Origin: Arcicella aurantiaca
GTDB lineage: Bacteria; Bacteroidota; Bacteroidia; Cytophagales; Spirosomataceae
Direction of reading: 5' to 3'
Assembly (NCBI RefSeq): GCF_003148625.1
Contig: NZ_QGGO01000003.1
Coordinates: forward strand, 124,001 to 188,000
DNA length: 64,000 nucleotides
Positions 12,732 through 29,892 of this stretch are shown here, piece after piece (position 1 is the stretch's first letter; the number at the start of each line of letters is the position of its first letter). Position numbers and translations under genes: made by a program. Under the pieces are notes generated by a model. The model saw only the letters and a program-made list of their open reading frames with translations. It searched no databases and was not told where the DNA came from.

Positions 12732-14021
12732 TTAATGAAATTGTTCTTCTTCGGTAGAGCCTTTTAATGCTCCTGTTGACGATAAACCGCTTGTTACGGT
12801 ATTTTGAATAGCATCAAAATAGCCCGTACCCACAAAGGCTTGGTGCTTGATGGCTTTAAATCCTTTTGATTGTAAGGCAAATTCTCTTTGTTGTAATTTA
12901 GAGAAGCCTGCCATTCCGTTGGTTACATAGTCAGATGAAAGCTCAAACATGGCGGTGTTCAAAGCATGGAAACCTGCTAAGGTGATAAATTGGAATTTGT
13001 AGCCCATTGCCGCTAATTCTTCTCTGAAAGTTGCCATTTTTTCTTCGTCCATGAATTTTGCCCAATTGAAAGATGGCGAACAGTTGTAAGCCAACATTTT
13101 ATTCGGAAATTTTGCATGAATACCTTCGGCAAAAGCACGAGCCATTTCTAAGTCTGGATTTCCTGTTTCCATCCAAATTAAATCTGCATAAGGTGCATAA
13201 CTTAATCCTCGGTCGATGCCTTGTTGTAGTCCATTTCTTACATGAAAGAATCCTTCTGAAGTTCTGCCTTTTTCATAATCTACAAATGGAACGTCTCTTT
13301 CGTCCACGTCAGAGGTAATCAAATTGGCGGCTTCTGCATCAGTACGGGCAATTACCAAAGTTGGAACTCCGCAAACGTCAGCCGCCAAACGAGCCGCAAC
13401 TAATTTATTGATAGCTTCTTGCGTAGGTACTAAAACTTTACCGCCCAAGTGTCCACATTTTTTAGCGGAGGATAATTGGTCTTCAAAATGAACGCCCGAC
13501 GCACCCGCTTCAATCATCCATTTCATCAATTCAAAAGCGTTTAGATTTCCGCCAAAACCTGCTTCTGCATCGGCTACAATGGGTACCATCCAATGAATAT
13601 CTTGGTCGCCACTAACCGACTGAATTTGGTCGGCACGTAATAAAGCATTATTGATTCTTTTTACCACATTCGGCACGCTATCAGCAGGGTACAAACTTTG
13701 GTCGGGGTACATATTTCCTGATAAATTGGCGTCAGCAGCCACTTGCCAGCCACTCAAATAAATGGCTTTCATTCCTGCTTGTACTTCTTGTACGGCTTGA
13801 TTTCCCGTTAAAGCACCCAAGCCAGCTACCCATTCGTCGGTGTGTAATAAATTCCAAAGGCGTTCTGCTCCCATGCGAGCGATACTGTAATCAAACTGAT
13901 ACGAACCCGCCAAACGTGCTACGTCTGCTGCGGTGTATGGACGTTCTACGCCTCTCCAACGTGGATTTGTTGTCCAATCAGTTACTAATTGTTGAATGCG
14001 GTCTTCTTGTGAAATTTTCAT
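12732..14021 (-). CDS. aceA: isocitrate lyase
   Basis: It cleaves isocitrate to glyoxylate and succinate, the first step of the glyoxylate shunt, which lets cells build biomass from acetate. The 429-residue protein has the family signature KKCGHLGGK (residues 187-195, catalytic C189), the upstream substrate segment ([10 protein letters not shown]) and the metal-binding DAEAGFGG. It is the second gene after malate synthase on the same strand, with 108 bases between them. A long inverted repeat lies in that gap. It is probably co-transcribed with aceB from the operator-bearing promoter near 15.85 kb. Confidence 0.97.
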
Positions 14022-14129: not shown

Positions 14130-15749
14130 TTATATCTCCACTTCTTCAGTGGCGATGAGTGTACTGTATGCTTCAGTGGTTAAGAATAGGTCAAATTTCT
14201 TTTGGGTAACTAATTTATCGAAAAGGTTAATAGCGTCGAAGAATCTGCCGTTGAAGTAGTTGTCTTCGCCAACCATATCTTTTATTTTCTGGATTTCGTC
14301 AGCTAAGAAAAATTTATACAATGAAATATCAATCGTTACTCCATAATAGGTTTTGGCACGGTGATGAAGCCATTGCCAAAGTTGGGCTCTCGAAATTTCA
14401 GCGGTGGCAGCATCCTCCATTAAATTATGAATTGCTGCTGCCCCGATGCCTCTCAACCAAGATTCTATATACAAAATGCCGACTTGTATGTTCATGCGTA
14501 TGCCTGCTTCGGTAATACACGCATCTGGAATGTTGAAATTTGTCAACTCTTCGGCAGTGATAATTTCGTTTTCTAATAGTACGTGTTTTTGATGTGGATT
14601 TTCTCTCAAAACCTTGTTGAATGGTTGCAAAGCCACTGGCACTAAGTCGGGGTGAGCTACCCAAGTACCATCAAAACCCGTTGAGGCTTCCAATTCTTTA
14701 TCGGCATTTACTTTTTCAAAAGCCAATTTATTAATGCTTTCGTCCTTACGACTCGGTATATACGCAGACATTCCTCCGATGGCGTGTGCTTTGCGTTTAT
14801 GGCAAGTTTTTACCAAAAGTTTGGCATAAGCACGCATAAACGGTACAGACATTGTAACCTGCGAACGGTCGGGAAGAACACAATTTGAAAATTTATGGAA
14901 TTTTTTGATACATGAAAAAATGTAATCCCAACGTCCTGCGTTTAAGCCTGCAATGTGTTCACGCAAAACATATAAAATTTCATTCATTTCAAAGGCAGCC
15001 GTGATAGTTTCAATCAAAACAGTTGCTTTGATGGTTGCTTTGGGCATTTCGATGGCTTCTTGTGCTGCCAAGAAAATGTCATTCCAAAGTTGAGCTTCTT
15101 GGTGATTTTCAAGTTTGGGAAGATAAAAATAAGGTCCACTTCCACGTTTTACCAATTCCCAAGCATTATGAAAGAAATACAAACCAAAGTCGAAAATAGA
15201 AGCAGAAATTGGAGTTCCATCAATAAAAACGTGATGTTCTTCCATGTGCCAACCTCTTGGGCGAACTTTCAAAACGGCTACAAATTCTTTTAAAGCATAA
15301 TGTTTTCCATTGTCTGCCGTGAAGTCAATTTGCTTTCTGATAGCATCACGCAAGTTGATTTGTCCATCCAATAAATTTTGCCACGAAGGCGTATTGGCAT
15401 CTTCAAAATCAGCCATAAAAACCTTTGCCCCAGAGTTTAAAGCATTGATAATCATGCGTCTATCTACTGGGCCTGTAATTTCTGTACGCCTGTCTTGCAA
15501 ATCTGCTGGAATAGGCGAAACCACCCAATCAATATCTCTAATGGCGGCTTTATTATCAAGAAAATTTAATTTTTTTCCTTGATTAATTTCTTCTTGCAAG
15601 TCTTTGCGTTTTTGCAAAAGTTGTTTGCGTTGCTTGTTGAACATTCGGTGTAAATCCCGAATAAAAACGATAGCATCTTCTGTTAAAATTTCTTCATAAT
15701 GCGGAGGCATTTCTCCCAATATTTCTACGCCGTGAATTGAATGTATCAT
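14130..15749 (-). CDS. aceB: malate synthase A
   Basis: It condenses glyoxylate with acetyl-CoA to malate, completing the glyoxylate shunt. Length (539 residues) and conserved segments identify the A isoform: the arginine/Mg-site region near RPRGWHMEEHH, VLIETI, the LNAGRWDY block, the MSAYIPSR segment and the C-terminal WQWLHH region. It is the first gene of the aceB-aceA unit. Its promoter (TTG-N20-TAGGTTTG) carries the AGCGAA operator at the -33 element. The XRE regulator gene is divergent, 303 bases away, a common arrangement for a pathway and its local regulator. Confidence 0.97.
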   Translation of the reverse strand: MIHSIHGVEILGEMPPHYEEILTEDAIVFIRDLHRMFNKQRKQLLQKRKDLQEEINQGKKLNFLDNKAAIRDIDWVVSPIPADLQDRRTEITGPVDRRMIINALNSGAKVFMADFEDANTPSWQNLLDGQINLRDAIRKQIDFTADNGKHYALKEFVAVLKVRPRGWHMEEHHVFIDGTPISASIFDFGLYFFHNAWELVKRGSGPYFYLPKLENHQEAQLWNDIFLAAQEAIEMPKATIKATVLIETITAAFEMNEILYVLREHIAGLNAGRWDYIFSCIKKFHKFSNCVLPDRSQVTMSVPFMRAYAKLLVKTCHKRKAHAIGGMSAYIPSRKDESINKLAFEKVNADKELEASTGFDGTWVAHPDLVPVALQPFNKVLRENPHQKHVLLENEIITAEELTNFNIPDACITEAGIRMNIQVGILYIESWLRGIGAAAIHNLMEDAATAEISRAQLWQWLHHRAKTYYGVTIDISLYKFFLADEIQKIKDMVGEDNYFNGRFFDAINLFDKLVTQKKFDLFLTTEAYSTLIATEEVEI

Positions 15750-16037: not shown

Positions 16038-16052
16038 ACAAAAAATAAAATC

Positions 16053-17546
16053 ATGAGCATCAATACCGATAAAGTAAAAATCATTTTTGGATTAAAAATT
16101 AGACAGCTACGTCTTGATAAAAAATTATCATTAAGTGAAGTTGCAGAAAAGTCTAATCTTTCCATTTCGTATCTCAATGAAATAGAGAAAGGGAAAAAAT
16201 ATCCCAAGACCGAAAAAATTATGGCTTTGGCGAGTGCTTTTGAGGTAGATTATGATTCTTTGGTGTCATTGAAACTTAATAAGCAATTAGAACCCATTGC
16301 TGAGTTGCTCAATTCTAATATTCTGACGGAATTGCCCTTAGAGATTTTTGGGATTGAACCTTCTGATTTTATCGAATTGATGTCGCAAGCTCCCGCTAAG
16401 ATTTCAGCATTTATTAGTACAATTATCGAAATTAGTCGGAATTATGATATGCGAGTGGAGCAGTTTTATTTCTCTGTTTTACGGTCGTATCAAGAAATGC
16501 ACGACAATTATTTTGAAGATTTAGAGGAGTCGGCACAACAGTTTAGAAAGTTGTTTGACATTACGCCTACAACTTCGCCGAATGAGAAACTTTTAAAAGA
16601 TATTCTTGAAAATTTCTATCATTATCGCATTGAAGAATTTACGCCAGAGCAATACCCTGATTTGATTTCGGTACGTTCTGTATTTGACCCTAAAAATAAT
16701 AAACTGCTCATTAACAAAACGTTAAGTACAGAACAAAAGGCTTTTTCGTATGGGCGAGAAATAGGTTATCAGTATTTACAACTCAAAAATCGCCCAATGA
16801 TTTCTTCTGTTTTAGAGGTTGAATCGTTCGAGCAGGTTTTGAATAATTTTAGAGCTTCTTATTTTGCAGGAGCAATTTTGGTAAATAAAGATATTCTCAT
16901 TGGGCGTTTGACTTACTTTTTTGCTTCTCCGAAATGGGATGCAGATATGCTTTTGAACATCATGCGTTTGTTTAGTGTAACGCCCGAAGTTTTTATGCAC
17001 CGCTTGTCTAATGTAATGACGAGTCATTTCAAAATCAAAAATCTATTCTTCCTTCGTTTCAATAATCAGGTTGATAATAATTTATTTTATCTGACTAAAG
17101 AAATGCACCTCACAAAATTACATACACCTCATGGTACTGCCATGAATGAACATTATTGTCGTAGGTGGTTGTCGTTAACTATTCTGAAAGATTTAGAAAA
17201 TGAACAAAAAACCAATGGATATGATGCCGAAGAGGTGATTTGTAAAGCTCAGATTTCAGAATATATTGATACAGAGAATAATTATTTAGTGATTTGTTTG
17301 GCAAAACCTTCGCCCCCAAGTCGTATTGTCAATAGCAGTATTACTTTGGGTTTTGCGATTGATGATAATTTAAAAAGTAGTGTGAATTTTCTGAGTGATT
17401 CTAATTTATTGCATAGAAAAGTGAATGAAACCTGTGAGCGTTGTAGTTTAGTTGATTGTAACGAGCGAGCAATTCAGCCTATTATTCTTAAAAAAAGACA
17501 AGCAAGAGAAAAATTGAAAGAAGCGGTGGCAAAACTGACAAGCTAA
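16053..17546 (+). CDS. XRE-family regulator with degenerate ImmA/IrrE-like domain and Cys-rich C terminus (short-chain acyl regulator type)
   Basis: I use the ATG at 16053 (497 residues); the upstream TTG at 16002 would add 17 hydrophobic residues before the helix-turn-helix. An XRE/Cro HTH occupies about residues 8-63 (KLSLSEVAEKSNLSISYLNEIEKG). The middle looks like the ImmA/IrrE peptidase-like region, but the HExxH zinc motif is replaced by GREIGYQ, so it is probably a ligand-sensing rather than a protease domain. The C terminus has C-x2-C-x4-C before an R..QP segment, as in the DUF2083 domain of RamB-like regulators of acetate and propionate genes. Divergence from aceB and the shared palindrome make it the likely glyoxylate-shunt regulator; whether it activates or represses is not visible. 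Confidence 0.85.
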   Translation: MSINTDKVKIIFGLKIRQLRLDKKLSLSEVAEKSNLSISYLNEIEKGKKYPKTEKIMALASAFEVDYDSLVSLKLNKQLEPIAELLNSNILTELPLEIFGIEPSDFIELMSQAPAKISAFISTIIEISRNYDMRVEQFYFSVLRSYQEMHDNYFEDLEESAQQFRKLFDITPTTSPNEKLLKDILENFYHYRIEEFTPEQYPDLISVRSVFDPKNNKLLINKTLSTEQKAFSYGREIGYQYLQLKNRPMISSVLEVESFEQVLNNFRASYFAGAILVNKDILIGRLTYFFASPKWDADMLLNIMRLFSVTPEVFMHRLSNVMTSHFKIKNLFFLRFNNQVDNNLFYLTKEMHLTKLHTPHGTAMNEHYCRRWLSLTILKDLENEQKTNGYDAEEVICKAQISEYIDTENNYLVICLAKPSPPSRIVNSSITLGFAIDDNLKSSVNFLSDSNLLHRKVNETCERCSLVDCNERAIQPIILKKRQAREKLKEAVAKLTS

Positions 17547-17588: not shown

Positions 17589-17743
17589 CAAATAATATTT
17601 GGCTATTTTTTGGTTTACAGAATTTTATTTTGAAAAATTCGTATTCAACATACTTAAAGTGTCAATAAATTTTATCTGAACAAATTTCGTTTTGTTGCTT
17701 ATTTAATATAGATTTGCTAAATGTACTATATCACATTATTTAT

Positions 17744-18163
17744 ATGAAAAATCCAAATTGTCCCCGCTGTGATGGTAATAATATAACAAAAAGTGGTGTT
17801 ATCAATGAAAAACAACGCTTTAAATGCAAAGACTGTAATTATAATTTTACCGTTGAGAAAATGGGTAAAGGCATTTCAACTTACTATGTTATTAAGGCTC
17901 TTCAATTATATATAGAAGGTGTTAGTTATCGTGAAATTGAACGTCTTTTAGGGGTGTCTCATGTTTCTGTAATGAATTGGGTGAAGAAATATCAGATTAA
18001 AATACCTAAAAATTCAGAATACTATCCGACTTATAAGATAATGAATCATAAGGAGTTAGTTAGTTTTTATAGTGAAAGAGAAAATTTAAGAGACGCAGGA
18101 ATGATTGTTACTGAGCTTGGAGATAAATTTATGCTCATTAAATGGGAAAGATTAAAACATTAA
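17744..18163 (+). CDS. zinc-ribbon plus helix-turn-helix protein, IS1 InsA-like, probably domesticated
   Basis: I use the ATG at 17744 (139 residues); an upstream TTG adds ten residues before the Cys motif. Residues 6-31 carry two CxxC pairs (C6/C9, C28/C31) with the FKCKDCNYNF pattern of IS1-type InsA zinc fingers. Residues about 50-82 form an HTH (YREIERLLGVSHVSVMNWVKK). The last ~55 residues are not transposase-like. There is no catalytic InsB frame, no terminal inverted repeat and no target duplication seen, and it sits in a metabolic cluster. I infer a DNA-binding regulator derived from a transposase; a decayed IS remnant is the alternative. A terminator follows it. Confidence 0.72.
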   Translation: MKNPNCPRCDGNNITKSGVINEKQRFKCKDCNYNFTVEKMGKGISTYYVIKALQLYIEGVSYREIERLLGVSHVSVMNWVKKYQIKIPKNSEYYPTYKIMNHKELVSFYSERENLRDAGMIVTELGDKFMLIKWERLKH

Positions 18164-18232
18164 GAATATTACTCAATCATTGAATGTCCTTAATTGGTTA
18201 TTTTAATGGTTGTTTTGTTTGACGATATTAAT

Positions 18233-18289
18233 AAAACTATACTAAAGTAGCAAGTGTATATCAATGCTATTGACAGTATAGTTTTTTTT
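18233..18289 (+). terminator. intrinsic terminator after the zinc-ribbon gene
   Basis: AAAACTATACT pairs with AGTATAGTTTT and runs into TTTTTTTT. An inner TAGCA/TGCTA stem extends it. It separates the zinc-ribbon gene from the porin operon. Confidence 0.8.
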
Positions 18290-18307
18290 ATGACCTTTGG
18301 CTCACCA

Positions 18308-18374: not shown

Positions 18375-19856
18375 ATGAAGAAAGTAATACTCTGTCTGTT
18401 GGGCGGAGTGCTGGCTAATTGCCAGATTTTCGCCCAACAAACTCCAGCAACCACTACAACCAGTACAACTACTGCAACGACAGCCCCAGCTCCGCCTGCA
18501 GAACAAAAAGTGACAGTTTACGGATTTTTGAGAAATGATATTTACTACAATTCTCGTAGAAATCTTGATTTAAGAGATGGAGTTTTAGATGTTTATCCTT
18601 TAGATGCAACCAATCTTCCGACCAGAACTGGAACAACTTTGACGGCAAATCCAAATGAAGATGCCAACGCTGTTCCGCAATTAGGATACTCGGCAATTGT
18701 GACACGCTTAGGAGTAAAATTGGGAGGAATTTCTGCTTTTGGTGCAAAAATATCAGGAACATTAGAAACTGACTTTTTTGGAATTACCAATGGAACAGGA
18801 GGTTCAGGAAGTGGAACTGAAAATTTATTACGTCTTCGTCATGCTTTTGTGGCAATGGATTGGACGAAAAATCAATTAATGATTGGTCAATATTGGAATC
18901 CAAATTTTATTCCAAAATGTTTTCCAGGAACTGCCAATTTTAGTACAGGTATTCCTTTTAATCCTTTCTCATTCGTTCCGCAAGTTCGTTTGACACACAA
19001 ATTAGGAAAGGAGATGTCATTGATGGGAATGATTTTCGGATATGATTTGGCAGGGTTTAGCCCCGCAGGAACATTTGCAGTAGGTTCGGGAGTAGATGCT
19101 CAGAAATTTTCTACAACTCCAGCTTTTGCAGCTCAATTAGGCTATGAAAACAAGAAGTTTTTAGCAACAGTTGGTCTTGAAGGAAATACTTTAACACCTA
19201 AAATTACCGATACAAAAAATACTTCTACGGGAGTGTATGGCGGAACTGGAACAGGAAATGTGCAGAGAAATATTAGTAATAATTTATTCACAGTCAACTT
19301 GTTAGCCTTTGCAAAATTGACAATTGATAAGGTAACGATGAAGTTTCATACTACTTATGGACAAAGCTATACACAGTACGTAGGCATGGGCGGTTTTGCG
19401 GAATATAGAGATGCCACCACAGGCGAATGGAAATATGTAGCTCAGAATCAGTTGAATATGTGGGGCGAGTTAATTTCAACGAAATCAAAGAAAGTTCAGC
19501 CTGCTGTTTTTGTAGGATATTTGCAAAATTTAGGCTTATCTGATGCTATTTCGAGTAGTAGCGTTAGAGCGGGAACTTTAGCATTTCAAGGAAGAGGTAT
19601 TAGTTCTGCTACTGGACGTGCCTTCGACAATATGTTGAGAATTGCTCCGAGAATTGATTTTTACTCTGGAAAAATGAAATTAGCTCTTGAATATGAATTA
19701 TCAATGATGAAATGGGCAGATATTGACGGAACAGTTCCAAATGCAGATGGTTCGTTACCAACAACTACCTCTTTCAAAGCAAGTACAAGTTCATTAGGTA
19801 GAGCTTTTGATGCTACTAACAGTCGTGTTGCGGCAGTTATGGTTTATAACTTTTAA
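18375..19856 (+). CDS. outer-membrane porin, probably for small carboxylates
   Basis: A 493-residue secreted protein: signal peptide (about 1-21, ending QIFAQ), then a Thr/Ala/Pro-rich linker (about 22-45), then alternating beta-strand patterns typical of a 16-stranded porin (VYGFLRNDIYYN at the start of the barrel, closing strand RVAAVMVYNF). It resembles the DcaP-like/general porin group of Gram-negatives. It heads a unit with the MHS transporter 39 bases downstream, so porin and inner-membrane carrier probably take the same substrate across both membranes. The substrate is inferred from the neighbours as acetate, propionate or another small organic acid. Confidence 0.82.
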   Translation: MKKVILCLLGGVLANCQIFAQQTPATTTTSTTTATTAPAPPAEQKVTVYGFLRNDIYYNSRRNLDLRDGVLDVYPLDATNLPTRTGTTLTANPNEDANAVPQLGYSAIVTRLGVKLGGISAFGAKISGTLETDFFGITNGTGGSGSGTENLLRLRHAFVAMDWTKNQLMIGQYWNPNFIPKCFPGTANFSTGIPFNPFSFVPQVRLTHKLGKEMSLMGMIFGYDLAGFSPAGTFAVGSGVDAQKFSTTPAFAAQLGYENKKFLATVGLEGNTLTPKITDTKNTSTGVYGGTGTGNVQRNISNNLFTVNLLAFAKLTIDKVTMKFHTTYGQSYTQYVGMGGFAEYRDATTGEWKYVAQNQLNMWGELISTKSKKVQPAVFVGYLQNLGLSDAISSSSVRAGTLAFQGRGISSATGRAFDNMLRIAPRIDFYSGKMKLALEYELSMMKWADIDGTVPNADGSLPTTTSFKASTSSLGRAFDATNSRVAAVMVYNF

Positions 19857-19895: not shown

Positions 19896-21473
19896 ATGTC
19901 AACACATACAGAAAAAACTTCGACAAAAGGATTAGCTGCTATTATTGGAGCATCCTCAGTTGGAACGCTCATCGAATGGTACGATTTTTACATTTTTGGT
20001 AGTTTAGCCACTATTATTTCCACCCAATTTTTCCCGAAAGATAACCCAACGGCGGCATTTCTTTCAACATTAGCCACTTTTGCGGCAGGTTTCGTAGTTC
20101 GTCCTTTTGGAGCATTATTTTTTGGTCGTCTTGGCGATTTGATTGGTAGAAAATACACTTTCATGGTTACACTTGTGCTGATGGGAGGGGCGACTTTTGC
20201 CATTGGTTTAGTGCCAAAATATGAAACAATTGGGTTTTTTGCTCCACTGTTAGTATTGGTACTCAGACTTTTACAAGGTCTTGCTCTTGGAGGTGAATAT
20301 GGTGGTGCTGCCACTTATGTAGCCGAACACTCGCCAGCAGGTCAGCGTGGTTTTTGGACTTCGTGGATTCAGATTACCGCAACGGCAGGTTTATTTATTT
20401 CATTAGGGGTAATCTTGGTTACAAAAAACTCAATGGAAAAAGCATCTTGGGAAGATTGGGGATGGAGAATTCCTTTCTTGGTGTCAATCATCATGGTTTA
20501 TGTGTCGGTTTTGATTCGTAAGAATATGTCAGAATCTCCACTTTTTGCCAAAGCAAAAGCCGAAGGAAAGACTTCTGTAAATCCTTTGAAAGAATCGTTT
20601 GGTAATAAATTGAACTTCAAATATGTATTATTAGCCTTATTTGGAGCAACAATGGGACAAGGGGTTGTTTGGTACACAGGTCAGTTTTATGCTCAGACTT
20701 TCTTACTGAAAATCATGAATATTGATTTTGACCAAGCGAATACACTTTTGATTATTGCTTTAATGATGGGAACGCCATTCTTCGTATTATTTGGATGGTT
20801 GTCGGATAGAATTGGTCGTAAAGGCATCATGTTGACAGGTATGTTATTGGGTGTACTTTGCTATCGTCCGATTTACGAAAAAATGTACCAAACCACTAAT
20901 TTGAAAAATAAAGAAGAAATCACGGCTGAAACTAAAGTTGAAACGAAGAGAGAATTAGTTGCCAATTCTACAACAGATTCGTTGATAACAACAACTACTA
21001 ACAAAGCTTACGTTGATGGAACAACTTATAAAGAAGTGAAAAAAGTAACGATTTTAGCAGGTAAAGATGCAGCAGACCAACCAAAAGCAGATGTAACTAA
21101 AACCGTAAAAATCAATGATTCAGACAAATGGACTTTGATTATGATGGTATTTATTCAGTTGATTTTTGTAACGATGGCCTATGGGCCAATTGCGGCATTC
21201 TTGGTAGAAATGTTCCCTGTGAAAATTCGTTATACCTCAATGTCATTGCCGTATCACATTGGTAATGGTGTATTCGGTGGACTAATGCCAGCTATTGCCA
21301 CTTATTTAGTATCAACTGCAAAAGATGCAAATGATGCCGCAGAAAAAGCAGGGCAAGCTATTGTAAATGCTCAACCATATTTAGAAGGTTTAAAATACCC
21401 AATGATTGTGGCAGGAGTTTGTTTTGTAATCGGTTTACTTTATATCAAAGAAGATAAGAGTATCAGAGACTAA
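19896..21473 (+). CDS. MFS transporter of the metabolite:H+ symporter (MHS) family, with large loop insertion
   Basis: A 525-residue inner-membrane carrier. GTLIEWYDFYIFGSLA in TM1 and RPFGALFFGRLGDLIGRKY in the loop after TM2 are hallmarks of the MHS branch (ProP, KgtP, ShiA), which import carboxylates or amino acids with protons. TM segments cover the rest, including the second-half WLSDRIGRKG signature. Unusual is a hydrophilic insertion of about 85 residues (about 321-406), rich in Thr, Lys and Glu, between the central TM helices, absent from typical ~430-residue members. It follows the porin and precedes a small membrane protein, so the three are likely one import unit. Confidence 0.88.
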   Translation: MSTHTEKTSTKGLAAIIGASSVGTLIEWYDFYIFGSLATIISTQFFPKDNPTAAFLSTLATFAAGFVVRPFGALFFGRLGDLIGRKYTFMVTLVLMGGATFAIGLVPKYETIGFFAPLLVLVLRLLQGLALGGEYGGAATYVAEHSPAGQRGFWTSWIQITATAGLFISLGVILVTKNSMEKASWEDWGWRIPFLVSIIMVYVSVLIRKNMSESPLFAKAKAEGKTSVNPLKESFGNKLNFKYVLLALFGATMGQGVVWYTGQFYAQTFLLKIMNIDFDQANTLLIIALMMGTPFFVLFGWLSDRIGRKGIMLTGMLLGVLCYRPIYEKMYQTTNLKNKEEITAETKVETKRELVANSTTDSLITTTTNKAYVDGTTYKEVKKVTILAGKDAADQPKADVTKTVKINDSDKWTLIMMVFIQLIFVTMAYGPIAAFLVEMFPVKIRYTSMSLPYHIGNGVFGGLMPAIATYLVSTAKDANDAAEKAGQAIVNAQPYLEGLKYPMIVAGVCFVIGLLYIKEDKSIRD

Positions 21474-21808: not shown

Positions 21809-22033
21809 ATGAACGGAATCAAAAAAATATTAGGAGTAGTTTGGATACTCTTAGGTTTAGCGACTGCCTACTTTGGCATAGCAGTTTTAGGTCTTCCAAA
21901 ATTTGCTTCGGGCAAGCAAGAAGATTTAGTATTTGGTATTATCATAATGCTTGTGCTTACGCCAATCATTACGGGTGGGTTGTTGATTTTTGGAAAATAT
22001 TCTCTTTCAGGAGAATATGATTCTGAAGATTAA
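21809..22033 (+). CDS. small two-helix membrane protein (DUF6814-like)
   Basis: A 74-residue protein with two predicted transmembrane helices (about 7-28 and 42-64) and a short acidic tail (GEYDSED). Small proteins of this pattern commonly follow MFS carriers in Bacteroidota; I recall them as DUF6814, not verified here. It follows the MHS transporter after the heptamer array and precedes a terminator, so it is the last gene of the porin-transporter unit. It may be an accessory subunit; its function is unknown. Confidence 0.75.
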   Translation: MNGIKKILGVVWILLGLATAYFGIAVLGLPKFASGKQEDLVFGIIIMLVLTPIITGGLLIFGKYSLSGEYDSED

Positions 22034-22075: not shown

Positions 22076-22131
22076 AAAATATGCCACAGAAATCTTTGAG
22101 TAATCTGGATTCTTGGCATATTTTCTTTTTA
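22076..22131 (+). terminator. intrinsic terminator ending the porin-transporter unit
   Basis: AAAATATGCCA (22076-22086) pairs with TGGCATATTTT (22114-22124), followed by the T-rich CTTTTT. It separates this unit from the symporter-kinase operon. Confidence 0.8.
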
Positions 22132-22269
22132 GCTATATTTTCTTAGCAAGTATAGTTTGTGAATTATTAAAATAGCCATAAAAAATAGTTAAATTGTTCA
22201 AAAATAAAAGGTGTGTTGATAATATATCTCAGCGAATAGTTTGTCAACTATAATGCTAAATCTTAACTG

Positions 22270-22482
22270 ATGGAAACTCGTAAAGACCAAAAACTATTAA
22301 TCATAAGTTGCTTATTTCTGGTACTTTTTACCTTTCCCGTTTTGTCAATTTTCAATAGTAAAAGTAGTGTCGGCGGAATACCTGTATTGTATCTATACAT
22401 TTTCTTTATTTGGATTTTATTTATTGTAACCATTTTCAGAGTAATCAAAAAAGAAAGAAAAGAAATCAAAAAAGATGAATAG
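22270..22482 (+). CDS. small membrane protein, DUF3311-like partner of a Na+/solute symporter
   Basis: A 70-residue protein with two transmembrane helices (about 8-27 and 36-58) around a GGIPVLYLY motif and a Lys-rich tail. This pattern resembles the short DUF3311-type proteins encoded just before SSS symporters. Its last eight bases (ATGAATAG) overlap the start of the symporter-kinase gene, so the two are translationally coupled. This strongly suggests it works with the sensor's transporter domain. The family assignment is by pattern only. Confidence 0.75.
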   Translation: METRKDQKLLIISCLFLVLFTFPVLSIFNSKSSVGGIPVLYLYIFFIWILFIVTIFRVIKKERKEIKKDE

Positions 22483-25183
22483 TGTAGTATTAATAATGGT
22501 TTCGTTACTTTATCTGGCATTTCTTTTTGGCGTTGCTTATTGGGCAGAAAAACAGTCGGAAAAAGGGAAAAGCTTAGTTACCAATCCGTACATATATGCT
22601 CTTTCGTTGGCAGTTTATTGTACTGCTTGGACATTTTTTGGTTCAGTTGGGCGGGCAGTTACCAATGGCATAGAATTCTTAGCCGTTTTTGTTGGTCCAA
22701 CCATCATGATGCCGCTTTGGTGGCTTGTTTTACGAAAGATTATTAGAATTTGTAAAGTCCAGAGAATCACCTCGATAGCTGATTTTATTTCGTCTCGCTA
22801 TGGTAAAAATGCCACTTTGGGCGTTTTAGTAACGCTGATTTGTATTTTAGGAGTTTTGCCTTACATCGCTATTCAGTTAAAAGCCATTTCGAGTAGTTTT
22901 TTGATTGTTGCACACTCTTCAGGCGACCAAAATGCGGACAATTTATTTTGGGGCGATTTAGCCTTTTACATTGCCGTTGTGTTATCGGTTTTTACCATTA
23001 TTTTCGGAACTCGCAAAATTGATTCAACCGAACGCCACGAAGGAATGGTAACTGCCATTGCAGCAGAGTCGATTGTGAAATTAGCGGCATTTTTAGCAAC
23101 AGGAATTTTTGTTACCTACATCGTTTTTGATGGTTTCGGGGATATTTTTCAGAGAGCCAGTTTAGTCCCAGAATTACGAAAAACATTTGTTTTCAATAAC
23201 GATTCAGACGCTTCGGGTTGGGTTTGGCATATTTTTCTTTCAATGACGGCTATCATGTTTTTGCCTCGTCAATTTCAAGTAGCCGTAGTTGAAAATGTCA
23301 ATGAAAAACATCTCAACAAAGCCATGTGGTTGTTTCCTCTGTATTTATTGTTGATTAATATTTTCGTGATTCCAACAGCATTGGGTGGAGAATTACTTTT
23401 TACCAATAATACCGTCAATCCTGATAATTATGTATTGGCAATTCCTTTAAAGTTCAATCAAAAAATACTGACTTTATTTACTTATATCGGAGGTTTTTCT
23501 GCCGCAACCAGTATGATTATCGTTGAAACAATTGCTCTTAGTGTGATGGTTTCCAACAACTTAGTAATGCCTGTGGTTTTGAAGAATAAAAAAATACAAG
23601 ACCATTTTCAAGGAAATTTGAGTGGTTTAGTCAATAATATCCGACGAACTTCCATTGCTTTAATTCTCCTTTTGGCGTATTTATATTACAAAACAATTGC
23701 TGAACATTATTCTTTAGTTTCCATCGGAATGGTGTCATTTACTGCCGTTGCCCAATTTACACCCGCTATTATTGGAGGAATTTTTTGGAAAACAGGCAAT
23801 AGAAAAGGGGCTTTAATTGGTTTGATTGCTGGTTCAATCGTTTGGTTTTATACACTTGTGTTGCCTTCAATTGTGGGAGCAGGTTTTTTCCCTCAGTCAA
23901 TTATTGACCACGGTTTATTTGGAATGGAATTTCTGAAACCTTTTTCGCTATTTGGTTTGCAAGGAATGGATAATATCTCGCACGGATTATTTTGGAGTTT
24001 ACTGATTAATGTAGGTTGTTATTTATATTTTTCAATGAATAGCCCTGTTTCCTCAATTGAACATAACCAAGCGGTAATTTTTGTTGATATTTTTCAATAT
24101 TCTGAACAATTAGAGCCTTCTGCTATTTGGCGTGGAACAGCTTATGTACGTGATATTAAGATACTTTTGAGTAATTTTTTTGGTGAAAAACGTTCCGAAA
24201 AAGTTTTGAGACTTTTTGCCCAAAAACATGGTTTGAATACAAAAAGCGACCGAGCAGACCCAAAATTAGTTGGTTATGTCGAGAAACTTTTGGCAGGCGT
24301 AGTCGGAACGGCATCGGCTCGAATCATGATTTCTTCAGTCTCAAAAGAAGAGAAAATTTCAACCGAAGAAGTAATCAGTATTTTAAAATCTTCGCAAGAA
24401 TTATTGTCAGCCAATAAAAGCTTGAGAAAAAAATCAGTTGAGTTAGAAAAAGCGACTTCTGAACTAAAAGATGCCAATGAAATTCTGAAACGGACTGATA
24501 AATTGAAAGACGATTTTCTTTCGACAGTCGCTCACGAAATCAGAACGCCACTTACTTCGATTAGAGCTTTATCCGAAATTGTCTATGATAATCCAGACAT
24601 GGAACCCGAAGAAAGAGAACATTTTTTGGGTACAGTGGTTAAAGAATCAGACCGTTTAGGACGATTGATTAATCAGGTTTTAGATTTAGAAAAATACGAA
24701 TCTGGAAAACAAAAATTAGACAAAGAAGAAGTTGATATTCAGGATATTATCAAAGATGTTATTGATACTTTGCATCAACAAGTAAAAGAAAAAAGTATCA
24801 AATTAGTCTTTATTCCAGACCGTTTTGCTCCAAGATTTGAGGCTGACCGAGATAAATTAATGCAAGTGGTTGTCAATTTATTATCGAATGCCATCAAATA
24901 TTGTGAACCCCAAAAAGGTGAAATCATCATTGCAACGCATTACGTAGAAGGTTGTATTTACACGAGTGTGCAAGACAATGGGTCGGGAATTGATAAAAGA
25001 TTTCAGCGACTCATTTTTGATAAGTTTTTCCAAGCGGAAGACCAAACCATAAAAAAACCGAAAGGTAGTGGGCTTGGGTTGGCAATTTCTAAAAAAATTA
25101 TAGAATTACACAATGGTCAAATTTGGGTAGAAAGTGAAGTGGGAAGTGGCTCAAAATTTACCTTTATGATTTCTGTTGTTTGA
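22475..25183 (+). CDS. SSS-type symporter/histidine kinase fusion (CbrA/CrbS-like sensor)
   Basis: The 902-residue inner-membrane protein begins with an SLC5-type symporter domain (about 1-500, some 13 TM helices, AVYCTAWTFFGSVGRA). A STAC-like linker follows (about 525-625, AIWRGTAYVRDI, ADPKLVGYVEKLL), then a coiled coil (about 635-675). A HisKA domain has the phospho-acceptor H687 in AHEIRTPLTS, and the C terminus is an ATPase domain (N-box NLLSNAIKY, DNGSGID, GSGLGLAIS). All kinase boxes are intact. In Pseudomonas CbrA and Vibrio CrbS such proteins couple solute transport or sensing to phosphorylation, CrbS controlling acetyl-CoA synthetase. Here PrpE and Acs genes lie just downstream, supporting acetate or propionate sensing. 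Confidence 0.92.
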   Translation: MNSVVLIMVSLLYLAFLFGVAYWAEKQSEKGKSLVTNPYIYALSLAVYCTAWTFFGSVGRAVTNGIEFLAVFVGPTIMMPLWWLVLRKIIRICKVQRITSIADFISSRYGKNATLGVLVTLICILGVLPYIAIQLKAISSSFLIVAHSSGDQNADNLFWGDLAFYIAVVLSVFTIIFGTRKIDSTERHEGMVTAIAAESIVKLAAFLATGIFVTYIVFDGFGDIFQRASLVPELRKTFVFNNDSDASGWVWHIFLSMTAIMFLPRQFQVAVVENVNEKHLNKAMWLFPLYLLLINIFVIPTALGGELLFTNNTVNPDNYVLAIPLKFNQKILTLFTYIGGFSAATSMIIVETIALSVMVSNNLVMPVVLKNKKIQDHFQGNLSGLVNNIRRTSIALILLLAYLYYKTIAEHYSLVSIGMVSFTAVAQFTPAIIGGIFWKTGNRKGALIGLIAGSIVWFYTLVLPSIVGAGFFPQSIIDHGLFGMEFLKPFSLFGLQGMDNISHGLFWSLLINVGCYLYFSMNSPVSSIEHNQAVIFVDIFQYSEQLEPSAIWRGTAYVRDIKILLSNFFGEKRSEKVLRLFAQKHGLNTKSDRADPKLVGYVEKLLAGVVGTASARIMISSVSKEEKISTEEVISILKSSQELLSANKSLRKKSVELEKATSELKDANEILKRTDKLKDDFLSTVAHEIRTPLTSIRALSEIVYDNPDMEPEEREHFLGTVVKESDRLGRLINQVLDLEKYESGKQKLDKEEVDIQDIIKDVIDTLHQQVKEKSIKLVFIPDRFAPRFEADRDKLMQVVVNLLSNAIKYCEPQKGEIIIATHYVEGCIYTSVQDNGSGIDKRFQRLIFDKFFQAEDQTIKKPKGSGLGLAISKKIIELHNGQIWVESEVGSGSKFTFMISVV

Positions 25184-25246: not shown

Positions 25247-25642
25247 ATGAAAGAGTTAATAAAAGTTTTAATTGTTGACGACGAGCCAAGCATTTTGATG
25301 TCATTAGAATTTCTAATGAAGAAAGAAGGCTATCAGGTTTTTATTGCTCGTGACGGCTCAGAAGCGATGGATATTATTGAAAAGGAAGTGCCATCAATTA
25401 TTTTGTTGGACATAATGATGCCTAATGTCGATGGTTATGAAGTTTGTTATCACGTCAAAAATAGTCTTCGTTTCGAGCATATAAAAGTAATTTTCCTCAG
25501 TGCCAAAAATAAAGAAATCGACATGGAAAAAGGATATTCTGTTGGAGCAGATTTATATGTCACCAAACCTTTTTCTACTCGAACTTTAGTCGCAAAAGTT
25601 AATGCCTTAGCCATCAATGTAGTTTCTGGCTCGGCTTCTTAA
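25247..25642 (+). CDS. single-domain response regulator (receiver only)
   Basis: 131 residues form just one receiver domain: acidic pair D11/D12, phospho-acceptor D55 (LLDIMMPN) and K107 (TKPFS). No DNA-binding or enzyme domain follows. It starts 63 bases after the symporter-kinase gene on the same strand and is surely its partner. CrbR, the partner of CrbS in gammaproteobacteria, has a LuxR-type HTH; this one does not. It must pass the signal by binding another protein or act as a phosphate sink. Confidence 0.93.
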   Translation: MKELIKVLIVDDEPSILMSLEFLMKKEGYQVFIARDGSEAMDIIEKEVPSIILLDIMMPNVDGYEVCYHVKNSLRFEHIKVIFLSAKNKEIDMEKGYSVGADLYVTKPFSTRTLVAKVNALAINVVSGSAS

Positions 25643-25787: not shown

Positions 25788-27686
25788 ATGAAATATCAAG
25801 AAAAATATAATTTTAGCATTCATAATAAAGAACAATTTTGGGCAGAACAAGCCAATAAAATTGCATGGTTCAAAAAGCCAGAAACCATCTTATCGCAAGA
25901 TGAAGACGGTTTTTATCGTTGGTTTAAAGGCGGAAAACTCAATACTTCATATTTAGCCCTCGATTTTCACGTTGAAAATGGTAGAGGTGAACAAGATGCA
26001 CTCATTTATGATTCGCCAGCAACTAATTCTGTAAAGAAATATACGTTTAGAGAATTGCGTGATGCCGTAGCAAAATTGGCGGGCGGATTAAAAAGTTTGG
26101 GTGTTGAAAAAGGCGATACCGTTGTCATTTATATGCCGATGGTTCCCGAAGCCGCTATGGCAATGTTAGCTTGTGCCAGATTAGGAGCAATTCACTCGGT
26201 AGTTTTTGGCGGTTTTGCTCCGCATGAATTAGCCATTAGAATCGACGATGCGAAACCTAAAATTATCATCTCGGCTTCTTGCGGAATTGAATTTGATAAA
26301 GTTATTCCCTATAAACCATTATTAGACCACGCCATTGAAATGGCAGAATTTAAACCAAATTATGCCGTAATTTTACAACGTCCACAAGCAGAGGCGAGTA
26401 TGAAAGAAGGACATGATATTGATTTTATCGAACTGCAAAATAATGCAGAACCTGCTGATTGTGTGGAAGTTGATGCCACCGACCCATTGTATATTCTTTA
26501 CACTTCGGGAACAACAGGCAAACCTAAAGGAATTGTTAGAGACAATGGCGGTCATGCCGTAGCGATGCACTATTCAATGCAAGATATTTACAATGTTCAA
26601 ACAGGAAATGTATTTTGGGCGGCATCGGATATTGGTTGGGTTGTGGGACATTCCTACATTATTTATGCACCATTAATTTATGGTTGTACCACTGTATTTT
26701 TTGAAGGAAAACCCATCAGAACGCCCGATGCAGGTACTTTTTGGCGTGTCATTGCCGACCATAAAGTTAATTGCTTTTTTACTGCCCCAACTGCTTTCAG
26801 AGCTATCAGGAAGGAAGACCCAGAGGTAGAATTGATGAAAAAATATGACCTCAGTTCTTTGAAAAGCATTTTTGTGGCAGGTGAACGTTGCGACCCATCT
26901 ACTTTATTATGGTTGAAAGACATTTCAAAACTTCCCGTAATTGACCACTGGTGGCAAACAGAAACAGGTTGGGGAATTGTTGCTAATATGATGGGAGTAG
27001 AGGCGTTTCCTGTTAAAGTTGGTTCTGCAACAAAACCCGTTTGTGGTTTTGAATTGAAGATTTTGAATGAAGCAGGTGAAGAATTAAAAGCCAATGAAGA
27101 GGGTTTTATTTGTATTAAATTACCGATGGCTCCAGGTTGTTTACCAACACTTTGGAATGATGATACACGTTTTAAGGAGTCTTATCTAAGCACTTTTGAA
27201 GGCTATTATTTGACAGGTGATGGTGGATATATAGATGAAGAGGGCTATGTATATGTAATGGGACGTATAGATGATGTAATAAATGTGGCAGGGCATCGAC
27301 TTTCAACGGGTGAAATGGAGGAGATTATTGCTTCACATCCAGCAGTAGCAGAATGTGCGGTTGTTGGTATTGCAGATGAGTTGCGTGGACAAAGGCCCAT
27401 TGGTTTTATAGTGCTGAAAGATGGACAAACAATTGATGAAGACAACCTCGAAAAAGAAACAATTGCCCTCATTCGAGACCAAATTGGGGCTGTTGCTTTC
27501 TATCGGAACACAATTTTAGTAAAGCGTTTACCAAAAACTCGCTCTGGAAAAATACTGAGAAAAGTGATACGACAATTGTCAGATGCAGTACCATTCACAA
27601 TTCCTTCTACGATTGATGACCCTATAATTTTAGATGAAATAAAGCAAAGATTGATAGAAAGAAAGATTGGTAAAGTGGCAAATTGA
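25788..27686 (+). CDS. prpE: propionyl/acetyl-CoA synthetase (PrpE/ACSS3-like)
   Basis: This acyl-CoA synthetase activates a short carboxylate to the acyl-AMP and then acyl-CoA. The 632-residue protein has YTSGTTGKPKGIVRDNGGHA (P-loop with the RDNGGH extension typical of PrpE/ACSS3), WWQTETGW, YLTGDGG and the C-terminal catalytic lysine K588 in RSGKILRK, also the usual acetylation site. The RDNGGH feature and FGGFAPHELA favour propionate over acetate; Acs in the same cluster has VHTCGGY instead. It is the last gene of the symporter-kinase-regulator row, 145 bases after the response regulator. Exact substrate preference cannot be fixed from sequence. Confidence 0.85.
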   Translation: MKYQEKYNFSIHNKEQFWAEQANKIAWFKKPETILSQDEDGFYRWFKGGKLNTSYLALDFHVENGRGEQDALIYDSPATNSVKKYTFRELRDAVAKLAGGLKSLGVEKGDTVVIYMPMVPEAAMAMLACARLGAIHSVVFGGFAPHELAIRIDDAKPKIIISASCGIEFDKVIPYKPLLDHAIEMAEFKPNYAVILQRPQAEASMKEGHDIDFIELQNNAEPADCVEVDATDPLYILYTSGTTGKPKGIVRDNGGHAVAMHYSMQDIYNVQTGNVFWAASDIGWVVGHSYIIYAPLIYGCTTVFFEGKPIRTPDAGTFWRVIADHKVNCFFTAPTAFRAIRKEDPEVELMKKYDLSSLKSIFVAGERCDPSTLLWLKDISKLPVIDHWWQTETGWGIVANMMGVEAFPVKVGSATKPVCGFELKILNEAGEELKANEEGFICIKLPMAPGCLPTLWNDDTRFKESYLSTFEGYYLTGDGGYIDEEGYVYVMGRIDDVINVAGHRLSTGEMEEIIASHPAVAECAVVGIADELRGQRPIGFIVLKDGQTIDEDNLEKETIALIRDQIGAVAFYRNTILVKRLPKTRSGKILRKVIRQLSDAVPFTIPSTIDDPIILDEIKQRLIERKIGKVAN

Positions 27687-27996
27687 AACGATATTATTTT
27701 AGCAAGATAAGCTATATTATTTTAGCGTAATACTTTCAAACAAGGATAGATTCTGTAATTTTGAGTTGTAATTTTGGGATATGTTTTGAAGGAGAATAAA
27801 TTGTACTTTTCTTAGTAGCACAGACTTTAGTCTGTAAATGAAGTGAAATGATTACAGACTAAAGTCTGTGTTACAAAATATTCAACGTTGTACCACATCT
27901 ATTTTAATTTAGAAAATTAATGTATTGCCATTAGAATTCCGATTTACTTTGCCTTTGGGTAAAAAACTGATAATCAAAACCAACAGTACCATAAAA
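27687..27996. other. intergenic region upstream of acs
   Basis: 310 bases holding the palindromic element at 27815-27874 and two TAATTTTG words (27756 and 27769) that match the -7 consensus without a clear -33 partner. No AGCGAA operator is present, so acs may be outside that regulon. Confidence 0.5.
27815..27874. repeat. palindromic element, same family as 12539-12665
   Basis: Arms 27815-27837 and 27852-27874 are inverted copies with one mismatch. Each contains a smaller palindrome, ACAGACTTTAGTCTGT on the left and ACAGACTAAAGTCTGT on the right. The outer ends read GTAGCAC and GTGTTAC. Confidence 0.8.
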
Positions 27997-29892
27997 ATGA
28001 ATTTACAAATCTCATCATTCGACGAATACGAAGAAGTTTATAATCAATCGGTAACTGACCCAGAAGGATTTTGGGCGGAAGTTGCTCAGAATTTTCAATG
28101 GCGTAAACCGTGGAAAAAAACGTTGGAGTGGGACTTTTCTAAAGCTCATACCAAGTGGTTTGTGGGTGGTAAAATGAACATTACCGAAAATGCTCTCGAC
28201 CGTCATTTAGCTACTCGTGGCGACCAACCTGCTATTATTTGGGAGTCTAATGACCCCGAGGAGGAGTCAATCACGTTGACATACAAGATGTTACATCAGA
28301 AAGTTTGTCAATTTGCAAACGTCTTGAAAAAACACGGAGCTAAAAAAGGAGATAGAATTTGTATTTATATGCCAATGATTCCTGAGTTGGCGATTGCGGT
28401 TTTGGCTTGTGCCAGAATTGGAGCAATTCACTCGGTGGTTTTTGGTGGTTTCTCGGCTCAGTCAATCGCTGACCGTATTAATGATGCTCAATGTAATATC
28501 GTTGTAACGTCTGACGGTTCTTTTAGAGGAAATAAAGAAATTGGATTGAAAGCTACGGTGGACGATGCTTTGGTACAGTGTCCTTCTGTTCAAAAGGTTA
28601 TCGTCTCAACTCGTACTCGCACGCCTGTATCAATGTTGAAAGGTCGTGATGTATGGTGGGAAAATGAAGTAAAAACAGTATCGTCAGACTGTCCAGCAGA
28701 AGAAATGGACGCAGAAGATATGCTTTTCATTCTTTATACGTCAGGCTCTACGGGTAAACCAAAAGGAGTGGTGCATACTTGCGGTGGATACATGGTTTAT
28801 GCCACTTATACATTTGCCAACGTATTCCAATACCAACCTAATCAAGTACATTTTTGTACGGCAGATATTGGTTGGATTACAGGACATTCATACATTGTTT
28901 ATGGTCCACTATGTTATGGAGCAACCAGTTTGATGTTTGAAGGAGTGCCGACATATCCAGACGCAGGTCGTTTCTGGGACGTGATTGATAAACACAAAGT
29001 AGATATTCTTTATACCGCACCAACGGCAATCCGTTCGTTGATGGGTTTTGGCGATAAATTCGTTGAAAATAAAGACCTTAGCTCGTTGAAAACACTTGGT
29101 TCAGTAGGTGAGCCAATCAACGAAGAAGCATGGAATTGGTATAACGACAATATCGGAAAAGGAAAATGTCCGATTGTAGATACATGGTGGCAAACTGAAA
29201 CGGGTGGAATTATGATTTCGCCAATTGCAGGAATCACGAAGACAAAACCAGCTTACGCAACGTTGCCATTGCCGGGAATTCAGCCTATTTTGGTAGATGA
29301 AAATGGCGTTGAGATTGAAGGAAATAGCGTGTCTGGAAACCTTTGTATAAAATTCCCTTGGCCGGGTATTATTCGTACCACTTACGGCGACCACGAGCGT
29401 TGTATCCAAACGTATTTCTCAACTTACAAAAATCTTTATTTCACAGGAGACGGTTGTTTGCGTGATGAAGACGGTTATTACAGAATTACAGGACGTGTAG
29501 ATGACGTTATTAACGTTTCTGGACACCGTATTGGTACTGCCGAAGTTGAAAATGCCATCAATATGCACTTAGGCGTGGTAGAATCTGCCGTAGTAGGTTA
29601 TCCGCACGACATCAAAGGACAAGGAATTTATGCTTATGTCATCTGCGAAAAACACCTTGGAGATTTAGACTTAACTCGTAAAGATATTTTGGCAACCGTT
29701 ACCCGTGTAATTGGACCTATTGCAAAACCTGATAAAATCCAGTTTGTGAGTGGTTTACCAAAAACACGCTCTGGAAAAATCATGCGTAGAATTTTAAGAA
29801 AAGTTGCCGAAGGAGAAACAGGCAACTTAGGAGATACTTCAACATTACTCGACCCATCAGTTGTTGATGAAATTAAGGCTGGGGCTTTGTAA
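27997..29892 (+). CDS. acs: acetyl-CoA synthetase
   Basis: It activates acetate with ATP and CoA to acetyl-CoA, feeding the glyoxylate shunt. I use the ATG at 27997 (631 residues); an upstream TTG at 27925 would add 24 residues not typical of the family. Motifs are LYTSGSTGKPKGVVHT (P-loop), WWQTETGG, YFTGDGC and catalytic K594 in TRSGKIMRR, the lysine commonly controlled by acetylation. The near-identical domain layout to the PrpE-like protein upstream suggests two enzymes with split substrate ranges. A very strong terminator follows. Confidence 0.96.
   Translation: MNLQISSFDEYEEVYNQSVTDPEGFWAEVAQNFQWRKPWKKTLEWDFSKAHTKWFVGGKMNITENALDRHLATRGDQPAIIWESNDPEEESITLTYKMLHQKVCQFANVLKKHGAKKGDRICIYMPMIPELAIAVLACARIGAIHSVVFGGFSAQSIADRINDAQCNIVVTSDGSFRGNKEIGLKATVDDALVQCPSVQKVIVSTRTRTPVSMLKGRDVWWENEVKTVSSDCPAEEMDAEDMLFILYTSGSTGKPKGVVHTCGGYMVYATYTFANVFQYQPNQVHFCTADIGWITGHSYIVYGPLCYGATSLMFEGVPTYPDAGRFWDVIDKHKVDILYTAPTAIRSLMGFGDKFVENKDLSSLKTLGSVGEPINEEAWNWYNDNIGKGKCPIVDTWWQTETGGIMISPIAGITKTKPAYATLPLPGIQPILVDENGVEIEGNSVSGNLCIKFPWPGIIRTTYGDHERCIQTYFSTYKNLYFTGDGCLRDEDGYYRITGRVDDVINVSGHRIGTAEVENAINMHLGVVESAVVGYPHDIKGQGIYAYVICEKHLGDLDLTRKDILATVTRVIGPIAKPDKIQFVSGLPKTRSGKIMRRILRKVAEGETGNLGDTSTLLDPSVVDEIKAGAL

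Follow-up and report, generated by a model that had tools for sequence, protein, structure and literature searches.

The gene at positions 17744 to 18163 (forward strand) of the window, by which we mean the whole 64-kb stretch of DNA that was analyzed, encodes a 139-amino-acid protein derived from InsA of the insertion sequence IS1 and is presumed to be a local regulator. We consider it probable that this protein is a captured InsA repressor that controls acetate uptake through IRL-type operators; DNA binding, repression, and an inducer are what we infer. The original prediction of a transposase-derived local regulator of acetate uptake gained support from a site that ties the gene both to the acetate cluster and to the ends of IS1, with regulation as the conjectural part. 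The case for domestication draws on homology, a tail read in the zero frame, the absence of a catalytic partner, single copy number, selection, synteny, and the site resembling an IS1 end.

The open reading frame was intact, with an ATG start, 139 codons, and a TAA stop. A zinc ribbon at residues 6-31 (17759 to 17836) scored 41.1 bits against NF050000 (cut-off 28) and 38.5 bits against NF048018 (cut-off 27), and its cysteines C6, C9, C28, and C31 were found in 101 of 101 relatives. It is followed at approximately residues 46-85 (17879 to 17998) by a homeodomain-like helix-turn-helix (HTH) matched above cut-off by both Pfam HTH_23 and HTH_28. The InsA-type CxxC...CxxC finger and HTH are thus retained, as had been predicted. 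Residues 6-123 also aligned with positions 1-121 of the 199-position profile for the IS1 transposase InsAB' (NF033558; E = 3.5e-22), but the score of 79.3 bits was below the curated cut-off of 100, there was no DDE domain, and the Asp at the first catalytic position was absent in all 101 relatives. NF033558 and NF050000 each matched 43 of 43 family members tested (E ≤ 0.001). The protein was the single match in its own genome at E ≤ 0.001, and its nearest named relatives were from Arcicella. AlphaFold, given 43 sequences, returned a model with a mean pLDDT of 84.7 and a pTM of 0.60, laid out as zinc ribbon, three-helix HTH, strand, helices, and two strands. Foldseek with this model gave no match at E ≤ 0.001 (best 0.043), and VIA-align aligned mainly the HTH (Z up to 6.7).

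A protein search returned at least 566 relatives, of which the best 80 were kept; these were nearly full-length and 63-99% identical. Together with 24 more, they made up the 104 loci compared here. Two of these (L139 and L140) were true IS1 relics, and one (L117) repeated another (L053), both carrying the same gene.

K-mer counts in 82 dereplicated upstream regions showed GCTA-N6-TATA in 69, compared to 0.7 in shuffles. The refined site matrix was 22 bp long, TNTTTGCTAAATTNNTATANNT. Upstream sites of the form TTTGCTAAATTnnTATA were present in the regions of 95 of 98 relatives compared to 24 of 490 two-base-block shuffles, an in-sample comparison. A 19-bp tandem arrangement was seen in 54 of the 98 regions, and in the regions listed most sites started at -80 to -20 from the start codon. 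A motif run seeded with another spacing yielded sites in 20 of the 98 regions, the strongest of them in near relatives, and gave way to the spacing from the k-mer counts. A leave-clade-out matrix, trained on 52 loci of other families (45 after dereplication), recovered a site in all 46 of the upstream regions that had been held out (45 distinct). The same matrix gave five hits of at least 14 bits in the window, all in the acetate cluster: one precedes the InsA-like gene, one the porin-like gene, one the kinase open reading frames (ORFs), and two the second acetyl-CoA synthetase (acs) gene. The number expected was 0.3 on average and 2 at most (30 simulations). A laxer training set, in which some members or near neighbors of the family in the window were present (L072, L081, L082, L088, L090, and L117), also gave five, with 0.2 expected.

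The operator-like sites in the window are given here with their scores by the refined matrix and by the matrix trained on other families. The first, IRL-like, lies upstream of the gene at 17692 to 17713 on the forward strand (19.6 and 17.5 bits). A second tandem copy at 17713 to 17734 (forward), with a spacer one base longer, is unscored by the final matrix and is conserved in near relatives. The remaining sites are on the reverse strand. One is in the gap before the porin-like gene at 18235 to 18256 (11.7 and 14.6 bits), and one precedes the small ORF and the SSS-histidine kinase gene at 22131 to 22152 (19.9 and 20.6 bits). Upstream of the second acs gene are sites at 27687 to 27708 (16.4 and 15.4 bits) and 27710 to 27731 (19.3 and 18.9 bits), and a weaker one at 27897 to 27918 (12.7 and 12.3 bits).

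A site of at least 14 bits was found within 150 bp upstream of the gene in 97 of 101 loci (in-sample). Across these 101 loci, such sites numbered 0.86 per 10 kb downstream of the gene and 0.06 per 10 kb upstream of it. Of the downstream sites, the next gap held 33, while 14 preceded acs, 5 the porin gene, and 5 the kinase ORFs; another 11 were before the MFS gene (2), the response regulator gene (1), or the other acs gene (1), inside the gene (1), or unassigned (6). Many loci end before acs, which limits the count of 14. As 14 of 101 loci had sites before acs and 5 had them before the kinase ORFs, the regulon is variable past the first promoter. Among kinase loci of the same size, a weak control in which GC was 0.39 for loci with the gene and 0.53 for those without, a site of at least 14 bits was found in 3 of the 19 gene-carrying loci and in 0 of the 11 others. 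Pattern counts over the window's own genome showed no excess (292 compared to 384 for the reversed pattern).

A conserved hairpin with a T run at about 18227 to 18292 (forward) could be a terminator, an inverted operator pair, or both. Its folding energy was -17.3 kcal/mol (z = -3.33), and 2 of 200 shuffles were as good. A clean terminator had been claimed here; the stable hairpin and T run bear out that description in part, but a terminator scan found none, and one arm of the hairpin contains an operator-like site. A layout with a reverse site followed by a forward site at 70 bp occurred 8 times in the 98 upstream regions. Separately, a Runella locus (L043) has a divergent pair of sites approximately 60-130 bp upstream, in the interval that separates the gene from malate synthase, which suggests that the glyoxylate genes share the operator there.

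The site was then compared with the left ends of the four close IS1s, L201 (Methanomethylovorans), L202 (Methylobacter), L203 (Tenacibaculum), and L182. The inverted repeats begin GGCATTGCTAATTTAATATAG in L203 and GGCATTGTTAATTTAGT in L202, and the window site reads TTGCTTATTTAATATAG, differing from the L203 left end at 1 of 17 bases. The L203 left end scored 20.0 bits, equaled by 0 of 1000 shuffles, and is located at -50 from its start codon, compared to -52 for the site in the window. The other left ends scored 10.9 bits (L182; 9 of 1000 shuffles), 1.7 bits (L202; 40 of 1000), and -1.1 bits (L201; 254 of 1000). At the sequence level, then, a putative recognition site like an IS1 end is present at the gene's own promoter, and the resemblance to left ends is very strong in one IS1, moderate in one, and weak in two. 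The IRL-like site lies upstream of the gene, and the weaker inverted site at 18235 to 18256, at most a candidate relic right end, lies downstream. The absence of IS ends, which had been asserted for this gene, was therefore not borne out, given this IRL-like sequence and its counterparts in nearly all relatives.

The junction of the tandem sites carried TAnnTTTG, which we take to be the Bacteroidota -7 box, in 53 of 95 regions by raw count. Since the sites often appear to bracket this box at the gene's own promoter, binding should repress the gene itself. InsA of E. coli IS1 binds the terminal repeats and represses a promoter that partly overlaps the left end (PMC12428005). The gene would derive from InsA, the unshifted product of a frameshift-type IS1, and its protein may bind the predicted sites, probably doing so as a multimer where these form 19-bp tandem repeats. 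Without acetate, the promoters of the gene itself, the porin and transporter, the kinase, and acs would be repressed. Relief could come from a signal of the acetate pathway, perhaps by way of the SSS-kinase and receiver-only response regulator that are inherited with the gene, neither of which has a DNA-binding domain of its own; because the response regulator is receiver-only, a protein-protein link with the InsA-like protein would be an attractive candidate. Taken together, the descent and the position of the sites make auto-repression and repression of the cluster the likeliest mode. A more far-reaching version, which we put forward only tentatively, is that a single capture took in the whole IS1 switch, at or close to the ancestor of the class to which the window belongs (Bacteroidia, as judged from named relatives). 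The repressor would have been kept under selection with an overprinted tail, the left end would have become the operator, copies of that end would have spread or arisen at several promoters, and the repressor would now serve as the DNA-binding output of an acetate-sensing SSS-kinase/receiver pair.

Alternatively, the protein could have been recruited for its DNA binding as an activator of the cluster, one that assists RNA polymerase on the tandem sites in the presence of acetate. Transporter operons often have a local activator, and the tandem 19-bp sites would suit one too. The gene and the sites are also both missing in two genomes of the same genus (G002 and G005, described below) in which the RamB-like gene, the MFS gene, and one acs gene remain. 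The place of the sites, however, with most of them at -80 to -20 and the putative -7 box at their junction, is repressor-like, and the ancestor InsA is itself a repressor (PMC12428005). We therefore find activation rather unlikely, though still to be taken seriously, and favor the captured repressor.

The C-terminal portion of the protein speaks to which IS1 product was captured. In L201, L202, L203, and L182, the closest IS1s, the slippery A-tract follows DEMxxYIGxKK. Read without the frameshift, L201 continues NKKNTAGSGLLLIELG, and the corresponding tail of L017, a consensus-like family member, reads NRENLKGAGMIVTELG. Each IS1 frame was scored, with 100 shuffles, by a profile built from residues 111-139 of the family. 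The zero-frame tail scored z = 7.9 in L201 and z = 5.2 in L202, with 0 of 100 shuffles as good in each, compared to z = 0.6 and z = 0.2 for the catalytic frame. The match was ungapped in both and covered residues 111-126 (18074 to 18121); residues 127-139 were matched in part, by L202 alone (to residue 134). A tblastn alignment ran through L201 in one frame at 42% up to residue 126. Zero-frame matches were absent in L203 (z = -1.6) and in L182 (z = 0.5, with a stop inside), as well as in six more distant IS1s tested; the catalytic frame of L182 gave z = 1.6 (7 of 100 shuffles). Near the position equivalent to the slippery site, A6C was found in 5 of 101 relatives, A6 in 3, and neither in 93, and the window gene had no A6C tract at that position.

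These results point to descent from the unshifted InsA frame in two of the four close elements. L201 and L202 matched in the zero frame and not in the catalytic frame, so what the host retained seems to be the repressor product along with its tail, and the tail seems to be an out-of-frame shadow of the catalytic frame. It had been stated that the C-terminal 55 or so residues were the protein's own; they are not wholly so, as residues 111-126 match the zero-frame InsA tail of two close IS1s. The C-terminus could instead be a truncated piece of the catalytic RNase H domain (-1 frame) or an unrelated domain. The strand-helix-strand-strand arrangement in the AlphaFold model and a short GxKF similarity to the -1 frame, noted by eye, would fit this, as would the unmatched zero frames of L203 and L182, the score of the L182 -1 frame, and the partial match beyond residue 126. 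The ungapped zero-frame matches in L201 and L202, where the -1 frame did not match, and the single-frame tblastn run argue against it, and we judge it unlikely. An in-frame truncated RNase H, specifically, was not supported by the frame-by-frame profile test.

The neighborhood of the gene is one of acetate metabolism. Isocitrate lyase (12732 to 14021) and malate synthase A (14130 to 15749) are encoded on the reverse strand, and a RamB-like XRE regulator (16050 to 17546; NF038139 far under cut-off) directly precedes the gene on the forward strand. Downstream, also on the forward strand, are a 493-amino-acid ORF (18375 to 19856), an MFS transporter (19896 to 21473; metabolite/H+ symporter TIGR00883, 358 bits, under the cut-off of 443), a small DUF6814 protein (21809 to 22033), and a 70-amino-acid ORF of no family that is conserved before the kinase gene (22270 to 22482). 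These are followed by the SSS-family sensor histidine kinase (22475 to 25183), the response regulator with only a receiver domain (25247 to 25642), and two acetyl-CoA synthetase homologues (25788 to 27686 and 27997 to 29892). The gene had been placed directly before carboxylate porin/transporter genes. The adjacent 493-amino-acid ORF is porin-like only by the label of the original prediction, and that label is unproven because the ORF had no Pfam or NCBIfam match.

On the same strand downstream of the gene, 88 of the 104 loci had the SSS-type histidine kinase, 85 the response regulator, 83 an acs homologue, 78 the MFS transporter, and 20 a recognizable porin-like ORF; several of the 16 loci without the kinase end too early to tell. 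An SSS transporter takes the place of the MFS transporter in L077 and, by eye, in L045, L079, and L138, which indicates that the transporter changes while the InsA-like gene stays. In Siphonobacter (L026-L028), the kinase region comes directly after the InsA-like gene. In a sample of 296 genomes, all 21 kinase-positive genomes of the gene's own class had the InsA-like gene, and 11 kinase-positive genomes outside the class were without it. Distances for the gene and the kinase were correlated across 81 loci (r = 0.887, compared to 0.123 for the best of 1000 permutations), although the nearest neighbor was identical in both for only 42 of the 81.

Natural losses indicate what the site is inherited with. 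Of eight genomes sampled from the genus, six carried both the gene (at least 92% identity) and the kinase, and all eight carried the MFS gene. The other two, G002 and G005, were without the gene and the kinase genome-wide, and their RamB-like, MFS, DUF6814, and second acs genes remained near one another. In the 18.0 kb (G002) and 14.2 kb (G005) around MFS, the porin-like, response regulator, and first acs genes were not found and no site reached 10 bits, with two in G005 at 9.0 and 9.4. In L057 and L065 the gene was present, the site was missing, and no acetate cluster gene was found within 8 kb, which is consistent with loss of the site together with the cluster; the gene would then do something else there. 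L092, which ends 1.1 kb downstream, had the gene without a site. The gene and site were both kept in L136, which had no kinase in its genome (E ≤ 1e-100), and in L045 and L079, which had none within 8 kb downstream. These patterns suggest that the site follows the gene in its acetate context and not the RamB-like or kinase genes. The site might otherwise be the operator of one of these other regulators, either the RamB-like protein or the SSS-kinase/response-regulator pair, with the InsA-like protein acting elsewhere. The RamB-like gene does adjoin in this genus, and the kinase and sites are missing together in G002 and G005. However, the RamB-like gene was found in only 8 of the 104 loci and is kept without sites in G002 and G005, the response regulator has no domain other than the receiver, three loci keep gene and site with no kinase found, and the site resembles an IS1 end. 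We regard this explanation as improbable. At L057 (7384-7803; Microscillaceae), the gene adjoins, by eye, a NuoJ-like ORF, and neither acetate genes nor an operator-like site were seen.

All 102 family loci were open through to the stop with no frameshift, and length was 136-143 amino acids in the 101 relatives with a determinable start. No InsB remnant was found in the 102 loci; genuine InsB matches occurred only in the IS1 relics L139 and L140, and two others at E = 0.29-0.45 were chance-like. The 296-genome sample contained 25 genomes with a match at E ≤ 1e-15, each with exactly one: 22 belong to the own class, G297 has an intact family member (49%) and is from outside that class, and G199 and G187 have IS1 relics. 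Compared with four near relatives, dN/dS of the InsA-like gene was 0.010-0.028, ratios that are rough because dS (1.5-2.4) was near saturation, and it was below that of the RamB-like, MFS, and porin-like genes wherever both could be computed. The C-terminal third, with dN of 0.047-0.098 compared to 0.010-0.037 in the N-terminal part, still appears constrained despite its higher dN. The coding constraint and lack of an InsB catalytic partner proposed originally were both confirmed, and the relatives kept the length, the C-terminus, and mostly the position.

In a tree of 44 InsA rows, the family formed one clade (99/99) nearest to the four close frameshift-type IS1s; bootstrap in this tree was unsettled and several IS1 branches were long. 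The survey of 30 IS1 loci (L171-L200) mixed family members, several IS1 subgroups, and weaker matches, and only L182 and L172 were taken from it into the tree. Phage sequences gave no match to the archaeal InsA, and viral contigs gave two short matches. Its single copy, conserved synteny, and purifying selection make the InsA-like gene a domesticated host gene. A decayed or still mobile IS1 remnant, kept by chance or hitch-hiking, would explain the NF033558 match but is very improbable against the open frames, low dN/dS, single copy, lack of InsB, and conserved position, and a decayed copy in particular was rejected on the first three of these. Elsewhere in the same genome, an InsB piece of another IS1 subgroup (L184; contig C36, approximately 33544-33876) was seen with no InsA part beside it.

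Transposon proteins that have become regulators are a known kind. TldR, which descended from TnpB, is likewise a transposon-derived protein turned transcription regulator. TldR is RNA-guided, whereas the protein described here would be an HTH repressor that seemingly keeps a transposon end as its operator. The E. coli IS1 InsA repressor (PMC12428005) is alike in its zinc ribbon and HTH, in being the unshifted product, and in having an IR-type site near its own start. It differs in that the present gene is a fixed host gene with no InsB and mostly no slippery site, and lies beside acetate genes, its predicted sites being at several promoters of the host. Xre-type regulators co-opted from mobile elements, with RamB among the examples cited (PMC8987985), are similar in that a regulator of a mobile element has moved to host metabolism, including that of acetate; they belong to another DNA-binding family, and the RamB-like neighbor is a separate protein. 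Among titles and beginnings of abstracts in the open literature, no InsA-derived regulator of acetate genes was found. The new part is that a transposon repressor and its end are both kept, as regulator and operator.

If true, this would be a bacterial case where a transposon repressor was co-opted along with the transposon end that it reads, both being retained throughout a large group. It would also suggest a way in which acetate uptake is controlled in Bacteroidota, next to a two-component pair with a response regulator that lacks a DNA-binding domain, and would offer a testable example in which a protein tail arose when a catalytic domain was read out of frame. Judging from the NCBIfam match, relatives may well be annotated as transposases, in which case expression studies could overlook these genes.

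A second reuse of the IS1-type zinc ribbon in a regulator was observed in two loci of the same genus. L007 (640-1788, reverse strand) and L011 (460-1650, reverse strand) encode LacI-family regulators with an N-terminal zinc ribbon of the IS1/IS1595 type, scoring 29.0 and 29.1 bits against NF050000, just above the cut-off of 28. Both genes adjoin ORFs weakly similar to the TonB-dependent receptor of the window.
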